NCBI GenBank assembly: GCA_947459205.1
Contig: CANHCR010000007.1
Span: forward strand, 1-64,000
Source of the DNA: Caryophanales bacterium
GTDB lineage: Bacteria > Bacillota > Bacilli > Paenibacillales > CANHCR01
Direction of reading: 5' to 3'
Length of the DNA stretch: 64,000 nt
Part shown: one piece after another, positions 29,016 to 32,473 of the stretch
How the letters are laid out: every line of letters starts with the position of its first letter
Numbering within the stretch: the first letter of the stretch is position 1
Notes under the pieces: generated by a model
Database searches by the model: none
What the model saw: the letters and a program-made list of their open reading frames with translations, nothing else
Told to the model about the DNA's origin: nothing
Made by a program: the position numbers and the translations under genes

Positions 29016-29327
29016 ATGTCACAGTTTGAAAATGTCACGGTATTGAAAAAAGCGAATGTTTATTTTGATGGTAAAGTGACGAGTCGCACGGTGTTGTTCG
29101 CTGACGGTACGAAAAAAACGCTCGGCATCATGATGCCGGGCGAGTATGAATTCGGTGCTGATGTTGAAGAATTGATGGAGATTTCTGCAGGCGAATTGCA
29201 AGTGTTGCTACACGGCGAGAGCGAATGGCGCTCCATCAACGGCAGCGGCGAATTCGTTGTGGAAGCAGGCACGAAATTCAAATTGAAAGTAGCGACAGTT
29301 ACGGACTACTGCTGTTCATACAAATAA
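29016..29327 (+). CDS. ppnP: Pyrimidine/purine nucleoside phosphorylase PpnP
   Basis: A 103-residue cupin of the DUF1255/PpnP family, which phosphorolyses a broad range of nucleosides. The sequence NVTVLKKANVYFDGKVTSRTV, the GIMMPGEYEFGA turn and the C-terminal FKLKVATVTDYCCSY agree with the family. The start at 29016 has GAGGAG 12 nt upstream; the GTG at 29004 is inside that site. The stop codon lies inside the end of the convergent YheC/YheD gene (22-bp tail-to-tail overlap). Confidence 0.9.
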   Translation: MSQFENVTVLKKANVYFDGKVTSRTVLFADGTKKTLGIMMPGEYEFGADVEELMEISAGELQVLLHGESEWRSINGSGEFVVEAGTKFKLKVATVTDYCCSYK

Positions 29328-30418
29328 ACGGCGTATTGTAGCGGTGCCCGGTATAGCCTGGCGATGTTGCGAAAACCGCGAATTTCACGATAAATCGACT
29401 TTTGCGGACTGGCGTTCAGTTCCAATATCCACAAATGGCGATTCACATCGAGTACAAAATCGACGCTCACCTCTGCGAGGGCGTCGTTTTTTGTTTCTGT
29501 GGCGTTCGCTGCGAGTAGTGCTAGCGTTTTAATTTTTTGGCGAAGTGTGGCAAGTTCGGGCGGATTCTGGATGACGTTGTGCATCCACTTGTCGAACATA
29601 TATACGGCAGAGTAGGCACTCGTGTTGAAAAATCCAGCGCGTGCGACGCGGCATGTCAGTGCCGTACATTGCCAACGTCCGCTTCGTCCCTTTTGCAACA
29701 GTGCACGAATATCGAAACAGCGATCATTCACTTTCAAAATGTCGATCGCTTTTTGAATGAGCCATCCGCCGTTCGTAGTCGATTGGAACAGACGATGAAG
29801 TTCTGACGGTTCGCGCGGACGCCAAAACGCTTCGTTCGTGTGACCAGCAACAAGCAAATCGCCGGCAACTGTTTTTTCGATGCGATGTACACCCTCACCG
29901 CGATTGCCGCGCACCGGTTTGACGAACCAACTGCCTGGTTGCTCCAACAAATGTAGCAAACTTTGCTGACGGTAGGGCATCGTAAGTGGTACATGTGCGC
30001 GTAACTTGGCCTGACAGAGACTGCGATACAATGTCCACTTGTCGAACTGGGTGACGCTGTTGAACAATCGCTGCTCGCCGATGAGTTGGCGTAATTGATC
30101 GGAGACGGTGCGATGGGTTCCGTAACAACGATTGATGACGGCAAACGGCAGCGAGCACAATTTTTCGCGGATACTGCCATTTTTTTCGAGTACTAGCGCT
30201 CGAACGTTTCTTGATTTGAAATCGATATGTTGCGGACAAAAGACAATCAGCCGTATTGGCAAACGGGATTGTGCGAGGACGAGCCGTTGATAGAGTAGCA
30301 ACGTGCGCCGGCGATAGGCGACGGATGCGACCATGATACCGACGAGAACATTTCGGACGGCTATTCTTGCGGGAGTGCTGATTGGAATTCCCCCTTGCTT
30401 AAAAGTGCAAAGATTCAC
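29306..30418 (-). CDS. YheC/YheD family endospore coat-associated ATP-grasp protein
   Basis: A 370-residue ATP-grasp protein of the YheC/YheD group (PF14398), known from spore coats of Bacilli. ATP-grasp features are WFVKPVRGNRGEGVHRI (lysine and glycine loop), WLIQKAIDI, the FDIRALLQKG segment and the C-terminal VDFVLDVNRHLWILELNASPQKS with the Mg-binding Glu and Asn. The substrate is unknown. The start is uncertain: the GTG at 30418 abuts the T-run of the upstream gene's terminator, a GGGGGA stretch lies ten codons in without a normal start codon after it, and the first ATG (30334) would cut the conserved VGIMV strand. The neighbour upstream encodes a spore-surface-like protein. Confidence 0.82.
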   Translation of the reverse strand: MNLCTFKQGGIPISTPARIAVRNVLVGIMVASVAYRRRTLLLYQRLVLAQSRLPIRLIVFCPQHIDFKSRNVRALVLEKNGSIREKLCSLPFAVINRCYGTHRTVSDQLRQLIGEQRLFNSVTQFDKWTLYRSLCQAKLRAHVPLTMPYRQQSLLHLLEQPGSWFVKPVRGNRGEGVHRIEKTVAGDLLVAGHTNEAFWRPREPSELHRLFQSTTNGGWLIQKAIDILKVNDRCFDIRALLQKGRSGRWQCTALTCRVARAGFFNTSAYSAVYMFDKWMHNVIQNPPELATLRQKIKTLALLAANATETKNDALAEVSVDFVLDVNRHLWILELNASPQKSIYREIRGFRNIARLYRAPLQYAVYLYEQQ

Positions 30419-30449
30419 AAAAAACGGACAGCCCCTAAGGAACTGTCCG
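30419..30449 (-). terminator. Terminator of the BclA-like gene
   Basis: On the minus strand CGGACAG and CTGTCCG form the stem and six Ts follow. The hairpin sits 22 bp after the BclA-like stop and directly before the YheC/YheD reading frame, so transcription of the latter may depend on read-through. Confidence 0.8.
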
Positions 30450-30470
30450 CGATTCTCACGTGAAACAGCA

Positions 30471-30962
30471 TCAGCGCAGACGGATGATGTTCAGCTGCGC
30501 GGAAACCGGTTGAGCGCCGCCCGCATTTGGCGTGACGGTAATGCTGCCGACGTTGCCAGCAGGGTTGCGCACCGTAAGCACGGTATTTTTCGTGAACGTG
30601 TTGACGATCGTCATTTCGACGATTTGCGTGTTGCCTTGCGCACGCCCAACGACGGTGTATGCTGCTTCGACGCCGTTCAAGGCAATCACAAGCTGACCTG
30701 CTTCGGTCACCGGTACTTGAAAGAGCACCAGATAGGAGCCAGGACATTCGAGATTGAAAGAACTCGCACTCAGACGCGAGATGCCGCCGTTGCTGCTCGG
30801 TCCATCGATTGGAAATGCGACTGCTCCGCCGGGTGCAATCGGCGACGGGTTGTCGGACGGCATGAGCGCGACGAAAGTAGCGAAATCGCGACCAAGTGGC
30901 GGGATCGGTGGATACGGCGGGTGCGGAGGATGTGGTGGACGTGGATGACAATGTTTGCCCAT
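30471..30962 (-). CDS. Spore-surface protein with BclA C-terminal-like (C1q/TNF-like) domain
   Basis: A 163-residue protein. After a short His/Pro-rich leader (HPRPPHPPHPPYPPIPP, about 6-22) comes a beta-rich domain of about 135 residues containing FATFVALMPSDNPSPIAPGG, SFNLECPGSYLVLFQVPVTEAGQLVIALNG and the final PVSAQLNIIRL. This is the pattern of the BclA C-terminal domain of exosporium proteins, here without collagen-like repeats. The ATG at 30962 has GGAGG 8 nt upstream. A perfect sigma-K-type promoter precedes it, supporting late mother-cell expression and a place on the spore surface. Confidence 0.78.
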   Translation of the reverse strand: MGKHCHPRPPHPPHPPYPPIPPLGRDFATFVALMPSDNPSPIAPGGAVAFPIDGPSSNGGISRLSASSFNLECPGSYLVLFQVPVTEAGQLVIALNGVEAAYTVVGRAQGNTQIVEMTIVNTFTKNTVLTVRNPAGNVGSITVTPNAGGAQPVSAQLNIIRLR

Positions 30963-30992
30963 GTTCATCACCTCCTTCTTTTTTAGCTACTG

Positions 30993-31019
30993 TATCGTAT
31001 GCTGCTTGCAAAGCGATGT
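30993..31019 (-). promoter_or_regulatory. Sigma-K promoter of the BclA-like gene
   Basis: On the minus strand AC (31018-31019), a 16-bp spacer and CATACGATA (30993-31001) fit the sigma-K consensus AC-N16-CATANNNTA exactly. Transcription would start about 20 bp before the GGAGG site. Confidence 0.7.
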
Positions 31020-31117: not shown

Positions 31118-32473
31118 ATGACGAAATCATTGAAATTTGATTATAGCAAGGCGCTGTCGTTTGTCAGCCAACATGAGGTGGACAACTTGGCCGCTCCGAT
31201 TGCGTTAGCACACGAGCAATTGCACAGCAAAACAGGTGCTGGCTCCGATTACACAGGTTGGGTCGAGTTGCCGCATAACTATGACCGCGAGGAGTTCGCG
31301 CGCATTCAAAAGGCGGCGGCGCAAATCCAAAGCGATTCCGACGCATTAGTGGTGATCGGTATCGGCGGTTCGTATCTCGGCGCACGTGCGGCGATTGAGA
31401 TGTTGTCGCACACGTTTTACAACGTGCTACCGAAAGGACAACGAAAAACACCAGAAATTTATTTTGTCGGCAACAACATCAGTTCGACGTATGTCACGCA
31501 CTTATTGCAAGTGTTAGAAGGGAAGGAAATTTCGGTCAACGTCATTTCCAAATCGGGAACGACGACGGAGCCAGCGATTGCGTTCCGCATTTTCCGCGAT
31601 TTGCTCGAGAAAAAGTATGGTCGCGACGGTGCGCGCAAACGCATCTATGCAACGACCGACAAAGCGCGCGGTGCGCTCAAGCAATTGGCGACAGCTGAAG
31701 GCTACGAGTCATTCGTCATTCCGGACGATGTCGGCGGGCGCTATTCGGTGTTGACGGCAGTTGGCTTGTTGCCGATTGCGGTTGCGGGTGTCGACATTGC
31801 GGCGATGATGCAGGGCGCGGCGGATGCGGCGACGACGTATAGCAATCCGAACGTTGCAGAAAATGAGTGCTACCAGTATGCGGCGGTGCGCAACGCACTG
31901 TATCGCAAAGGCAAAACAACCGAAATTTTCGTCAGCTATGAACCAGCGATGCACTTTGTTGCGGAGTGGTGGAAGCAATTGTACGGCGAGAGCGAGGGTA
32001 AAGACCAACGCGGCATTTTTCCAGCAGCGGTCGATTTTTCTGCCGACTTGCACTCGATGGGTCAATACATCCAAGACGGCGTACGCAACTTGTTCGAGAC
32101 GGTCATCCAGATCGGCGAAGTGGTTGAGCAAATCGTCATTGGCGAAGATGCGGAAAACTTAGACGGGCTCAATTTCCTCGCCGGCAAGACGATGGATTTC
32201 GTCAATAAAAAAGCGTTCGAAGGCACCTTGCTCGCACATACCGATGGCGGCGTGCCGAATTTGGTCGTGACGCTTCCGGGCATGACGGCTTATGATTTCG
32301 GTTACATGGTGTACTTTTTCGAAAAAGCATGCGGCATCAGCGGCTACTTGCTCGGCGTCAATCCGTTCGACCAAGAGGGCGTTGAGGCTTACAAGAAAAA
32401 CATGTTCGCTTTGCTCGGCAAACCGGGCTTTGAGAAGCAAAAAGCAGAATTAGAAGCGCGCTTGACGCAATAA
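31118..32473 (+). CDS. pgi: Glucose-6-phosphate isomerase
   Basis: Interconverts glucose 6-phosphate and fructose 6-phosphate in glycolysis and gluconeogenesis. The 451 residues match the short bacterial (Bacillus-type) enzyme. The phosphate-binding SIS motif [17 protein letters not shown], the family signature [16 protein letters not shown] and the active-site [11 protein letters not shown] near the C-terminus are all present, as is [23 protein letters not shown] precedes the ATG by 7 nt. Confidence 0.96.

Follow-up and report, generated by a model that had tools for sequence, protein, structure and literature searches.

The locus lies in a stretch of 64,000 nucleotides (the window) and consists of two genes on the minus strand with an intrinsic terminator between them. 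The upstream gene (P0001, 30471..30962, minus strand) runs from ATG 30962 to the stop at 30471 and encodes a BclA-like protein of 163 amino acids without collagen. It is preceded by a very strong Shine-Dalgarno sequence, AAGGAGGT (30970..30977, minus strand; duplex of -17.4 kcal/mol). The downstream gene (P0002, 29306..30382, minus strand) encodes a YheC/D-type ATP-grasp ligase with a putative ATC start at 30382, in a frame that is open from GTG 30418. The terminator (30424..30450, minus strand) is formed by a 12-pair stem with a 3-nt loop and a T-run, at about -20 kcal/mol. An exact match to the sigma-K-like consensus, AC-N16-CATACGATA (30993..31019, minus strand), ends 15 nt ahead of the Shine-Dalgarno sequence and 30 nt ahead of the ATG of P0001. 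A sigma-A-like extended site with an 11/12 match (31140..31167, minus strand) lies inside the 5' end of pgi and is aimed at the BclA-like gene. At their 3' ends P0002 and the convergent ppnP overlap by 22 bases (29306-29327). Judged by family resemblance, P0001 and P0002 probably form a two-gene spore-surface unit.

The BclA-like protein

The structure of P0001 was modelled with AlphaFold2 from a 20-row alignment (mean pLDDT 76). A beta jelly roll begins at residue 27 in the model, and residues 1-15 have a pLDDT below 50; this model and that of P0002 described below are monomer models. Heads of the BclA/C1q type form trimers. Foldseek placed the F-BclA head 9h38 nearest in fold (TMq 0.74, E=2.1e-10); the BclA structure 1wck was matched at E=7.2e-9 and TMq 0.73. 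The Pfam family PF18573 (BclA_C) matched residues 44-162 at E=1.7e-7 with 31.6 bits, below the curated cut-off of 38. No GXY collagen repeats occur anywhere in the 163 residues, and the reading frame from 30962 to 30471 and these fold matches bore out the BclA-like domain without collagen repeats that the initial annotation had described. The structure 9h38 was also the best PDB sequence match; it is named FliK in its sequence record and comes from work on F-ENA. P0001 was considered as an F-ENA pilus subunit and this assignment was rejected, 9h38 being the F-BclA head and not the DUF4183 subunit; DUF4183 was absent among the Pfam matches of P0001 at E<=1.

The first 24 residues, MGKHCHPRPPHPPHPPYPPIPPLG, have a glycine-free triplet rhythm of PPH-PPH-PPY-PPI. 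This leader (MGKHCHPRPPHPPHPPYPPIPPLGR, 30888..30962, minus strand), with its PPX triplets lacking glycine, stands where relatives have a collagen leader of the form MG..PPGPPGP. It starts MGKHCHP and gave no NCBIfam match to the exosporium leader motif at E<=1. The His/Pro-rich leader is unusual, as had been proposed. The F-ENA study describes F-BclA and ExsF, and the hook given in its accessible text is M-P-hydrophobic (PMC11952670), as against MGKHCHP in P0001.

The genome to which the window belongs encodes two more BclA-like collagen proteins (G000 contig C43, L009:259-2010 and 2029-2550), one of which runs on into about 400 residues resembling a repetitive beta-helix; neither adjoins a YheC/D gene. 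Collagen-less BclA-domain proteins were also seen at three other loci (L029, L040 and L046), where they share a different leader, SQRIYVSDSHFSCC, and do not adjoin yheC/D.

The ATP-grasp gene and its start

P0002 was assigned to PF14398 (ATPgrasp_YheCD) with E=1e-51 and 176.1 bits against a curated cut-off of 26.8, the match covering profile positions 3-255 of 255. The TTL family scored barely above its own Pfam cut-off in P0002 and RimK below its own. In a 14-row alignment that included P0002, residues K156, D309, E322 and N324 were invariant and of ATP-grasp type, and we take them to be ATP/Mg-type residues. The AlphaFold2 model of P0002 had a pLDDT of 88.6; its top Foldseek matches were D-Ala-D-Ala ligases, and tubulin tyrosine ligase and LysX came lower in the ranking. 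The reaction of ATP-grasp enzymes links a carboxylate to an amine, and D-Ala-D-Ala ligases join small molecules. In a tree of 33 rows P0002 grouped with 32 genes paired with collagen-like partners (support 98/97), on a long branch (1.63) for which the program warned of long-branch joins. YheC/D genes are numerous in the spore formers examined, 11 genomes having between 6 and 23 matches each when fragments are counted; the window's own genome carries five in tandem (G000:C2:95452-101191), and clusters of at least four were seen in 11/11 relatives searched.

The initial annotation had placed the YheC/D gene behind a terminator and without a normal start, and both points held: the 12-pair stem is followed by a T-run, and no in-frame ATG, GTG or TTG of P0002 has a well-placed ribosome site. 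The best ribosome-binding site, AAGGGGG (30390..30396, minus strand; -10.5 kcal/mol), lies 7 nt ahead of ATC 30382. GTG 30418 falls just past the T-run, and its sole upstream pairing (-6.1) is within the terminator stem. ATA 30364 lies in frame without a ribosome site, and a start at the first in-frame ATG, 30334, would cut away residues 13-18, which are predicted to form the first beta strand. The yheC/D genes of relatives start at ATG, TTG or GTG, by eye about 7-12 residues ahead of the conserved [GA]I[ML]V; counted from ATC 30382, P0002 has 14 residues to that position. ATC 30382 is thus the best placed start, to which we assign slightly less than an even chance. Somewhat less probable, and kept in consideration because the family is represented by a single genome, is that the ATC stems from a sequencing error or that the original start was lost. 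A start at GTG 30418 is doubtful. A literature search on AUC start codons yielded nothing of use here.

The order of features suggests how this arrangement may have arisen. A co-directional surface gene with its terminator lies just before yheC/D; a rearrangement with its breakpoint at the yheC/D 5' end would account for the lack of a promoter as well as of a start codon.

Pairing of the ligase clade with collagen-like genes

A search with P0002 through 198 genomes of the order (E<=1e-40) gave 46 matches, including the window, in 44 of the genomes. In 45/45 of the matches other than its own a partner gene lies immediately upstream in divergent orientation, and 44 of these 45 partners are collagen-like proteins that begin MG..PGPPG[PA], some of them ending at a contig or locus end and a few having short GXY runs, of 7 in L075 and L243. 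The 45th partner (L250, in G191) has the same kind of C-terminal domain without the leader and start. P0001 and the 46 partners of relatives for which a leader was found all have Gly2 and, after it, a Pro-rich run. This universality of MG is partly built in because the expressions used to find leaders demand MG, but a Shine-Dalgarno-like run precedes the partner ATG in the rows inspected (15/46). Residue 3 is Lys in P0001; many partners have Arg there, and a few have neither of the two (MGQK, MGIL, MGII). At least three types of C-terminal sequence follow the collagen in the partners: one is BclA-like, one is of an 'IPFSTG' type, and one is a second TNF-like type, for which L063 gave a weak match to BclA_C as well (E=3.3e-5). 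The other partners are cut or unclassified. A damaged pair was seen at L152 (G073), where a truncated BclA-domain gene overlaps a yheC/D fragment.

When the flanks of 10 such loci were compared (ORFs of at least 130 aa, collagen-like ORFs left out), the YheC/D family was the only one shared by all 10, and no other family occurred in more than 3; the remaining shared families were common to 2-3 loci, mostly in the sister genomes G012 and G022. This recurrence of one protein partner class across differing gene surroundings speaks against a role of the ligase as the source of a small peptide or polymer laid down on the coat, with the collagen-like protein as a mere carrier or neighbour. We consider such a role quite improbable, although the top fold matches of P0002, the D-Ala-D-Ala ligases, are in its favour.

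The specificity of the association was examined with 115 other YheC/D genes from 12 genomes, namely that of the window and 11 chosen genomes (9 carrying a clade gene, the other 2 a BclA-domain gene). A neighbour was counted when a GXY run of at least 8 occurred on either strand within 2.5 kb. By this rule a collagen-like ORF was near 1/115 of the other YheC/D genes, at 1174 bp downstream, in a set that includes loci cut by contig ends (L178 and L228) and excludes two fragments (G105:C19:314854-315308 and 348452-349149) and two sub-cut-off matches (G010:C8 and G022:C1:1900427). Under the same rule 31/32 of the paired clade pass, L075 failing with its run of 7. Seen from the other gene, 6/72 BclA-domain neighbourhoods adjoin an intact yheC/D; at L152 the gene is truncated, and at L144 there are only fragments, about 5 kb away. 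The MG..PGPPGP leader is found in 6/6 of the BclA-domain genes that adjoin an intact yheC/D versus 2/66 of the others, at least 7 of these 66 running off a contig end that hides leader and neighbour. In G030 and G193 such cut genes may equal cut partners, since a clade yheC/D lies near another contig end there.

The reach of the pairing was assessed in a class-level search of 398 genomes at E<=1e-70, which gave 6 matches other than the window's own. A collagen partner was present in G312, G369 and G004, the last already among the 45, and no collagen neighbour was found beside the more distant matches in G376, G643 and G332. In these three a small ORF of 71-83 aa with the pattern MG..GC.C adjoins (L237:2603-2851, L239:1112-1327 and L240:1060-1272, all minus strand), divergent and upstream in two and convergent and downstream in G376. 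The small ORFs had no Pfam or NCBIfam match except one weak Pfam hit (E=0.24), and are possibly another partner class. The unpaired G376 match scores 339 bits and the paired G004 match 331, so the partner is not predicted by score alone. The window's genome is the only one available for its genus and family, and a contig search gave a single locus, in an Oscillibacter MAG at 43% identity.

The pair in the window departs from the common arrangement: it is the sole co-directional pair seen, and a PPX His/Pro leader replaces the GXY collagen. A clade YheC/D gene still adjoins a partner with an MG-Pro-rich start. This copy may be decaying and nonfunctional, having lost its collagen and had its yheC/D severed from promoter and start, a reading that is compatible with the others discussed here. 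The lack of a canonical start and the strong terminator upstream, the long branch of P0002 and the damaged partners elsewhere (L250 without leader and start, L152 with a truncated pair) are in keeping with decay. Both reading frames are nevertheless intact with their conserved residues kept, and the ribosome site of P0001 is very strong, which makes decay rather unlikely in our judgement.

The sigma-K promoter claimed in the initial annotation fared less well than the gene pair. The gene bclA is expressed under sigma-K, and the motif upstream of P0001 is exact and well placed. It occurs twice in the window against 0.81 expected, with two or more matches in 17/100 shuffles, and 40 times in the genome against 91 for a reversed control pattern; the motif is not rare in itself, and only its position before P0001 is suggestive. 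The exact motif was found in 0/32 intergenic regions of paired relatives (32 of the 45) in both directions, and control of the pair by sigma-K as judged by motif conservation was dropped on this count. A relaxed pattern, AC-N16/17-CATWNNNTA, was found on the yheC/D side in 13/32 regions against 0.74 expected, but these sequences are related, and on the collagen side in 0/32. The 88 nt preceding ATC 30382 of the window's yheC/D contain no CAT. With no genome-wide enrichment, no exact motif in the relatives and a sigma-A-like site upstream, expression at the time of sigma-K is a tentative suggestion. Elsewhere in the genome an exact sigma-K-like motif (G000:C25:10700-10726) also precedes a second YheC/D gene, with about 27 nt between it and a possible start codon.

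Proposed role and comparison with known systems

The link between ATP-grasp enzyme and surface protein that the initial annotation had suspected is supported far more strongly by the pairing in 45/45 relatives, 44 of them with a collagen-like partner, than the sequence alone could tell; modification of the partner is a presumed meaning of that link. The near-constant collagen-like neighbour of the close relatives of P0002 suggests that the enzyme acts on the surface protein. Since the MG-Pro-rich start is common to the partners and their C-terminal parts and surroundings vary, recognition by the ligase is inferred to depend on the leader or the collagen. Our preferred reading, with a probability somewhat above even (about 0.55), is that the enzymes of this YheC/D clade serve as ligases dedicated to the MG-Pro-rich leader or the collagen region of their partners, the chemistry being the one presumed for such an enzyme.

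The product of the first gene would then be a BclA/C1q-like head on a short Pro-rich stalk starting MGK, located on the spore, and the second product a YheC/D-clade ATP-grasp ligase dedicated to such proteins. In the mother cell, the presumed compartment, the ligase would spend ATP on activating a carboxylate and then form an amide between it and an amine on the partner. The site would probably be the conserved MG-Pro-rich N-terminal part common to the partners, and the filament would thereby be fixed to the coat or capped there. No Glu or Asp occurs in P0001 ahead of residue 26, making an acceptor amine (Gly2 after Met removal, or Lys3) likelier than Glu; a Glu side-chain target, possible in relatives, could on this sequence not apply to P0001. 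A more specific form of the proposal is that the clade is a post-translational ligase for collagen-like spore filaments, acting on the leader and perhaps on Gly2, for which the leader and not the helix is needed, and that the window's copy starts at ATC. This full combination is speculative and unlikely to hold in every part.

Set against modification is the view that the two genes form a co-regulated coat module and that YheC/D has a structural or scaffold role in it, leaving its neighbour unmodified. YheD of B. subtilis encases the spore, forming shells around it with self-interaction, its function being described as undetermined in the available text (PMC7911427), and yheC and yheD are assigned to the sigma-E regulon and stimulated by SpoIIID in the portion available of another report (PMC517825). 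The invariance of the ATP-grasp residues in the 14 rows including P0002, and the confinement of the linkage to one clade, argue against a scaffold, which we regard as clearly the less likely role.

The accessible text of the F-ENA study contains no occurrence of YheC, YheD or ATP-grasp (PMC11952670), and neither YheC nor YheD occurs in PMC8939145. In paenibacilli a YheC/D gene is placed between gyrA and gyrB in the available part of PMC5627462, and the one paper in which ATP-grasp, collagen-like and spore all occur, PMC8303946, has the terms apart, in gene lists, in its available part. No description of an ATP-grasp/collagen-like linkage was found among titles and opening lines, in a literature that included few subscription papers. 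A clade-specific, near-obligate genomic partner gives the YheC/D family a concrete candidate substrate. If the preferred reading is true, collagen-like spore filaments would be assembled with an additional step of protein modification.

P0001 has the C1q/TNF-like head of BclA and F-BclA, as seen in its Foldseek matches to 9h38 and 1wck. Unlike them it is without collagen repeats and without a match to the exosporium leader, and its PF18573 score is under the cut-off. The basal-layer proteins ExsFA/BxpB are likewise collagen-less, and their jelly roll is about as long as that of P0001 (7r1m, TMq 0.60), whereas the fold of P0001 is nearer to the BclA heads and is joined to a Pro-rich leader. P0002 belongs to the same ATP-grasp family, PF14398, as B. 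subtilis YheC/YheD and lies in a distinct clade, one that is paired with collagen-like genes. RimK, tubulin tyrosine ligase and the graspetide ligases are ATP-grasp enzymes that act on protein or peptide partners; compared with these, P0002 would have a collagen-like protein as its candidate partner.
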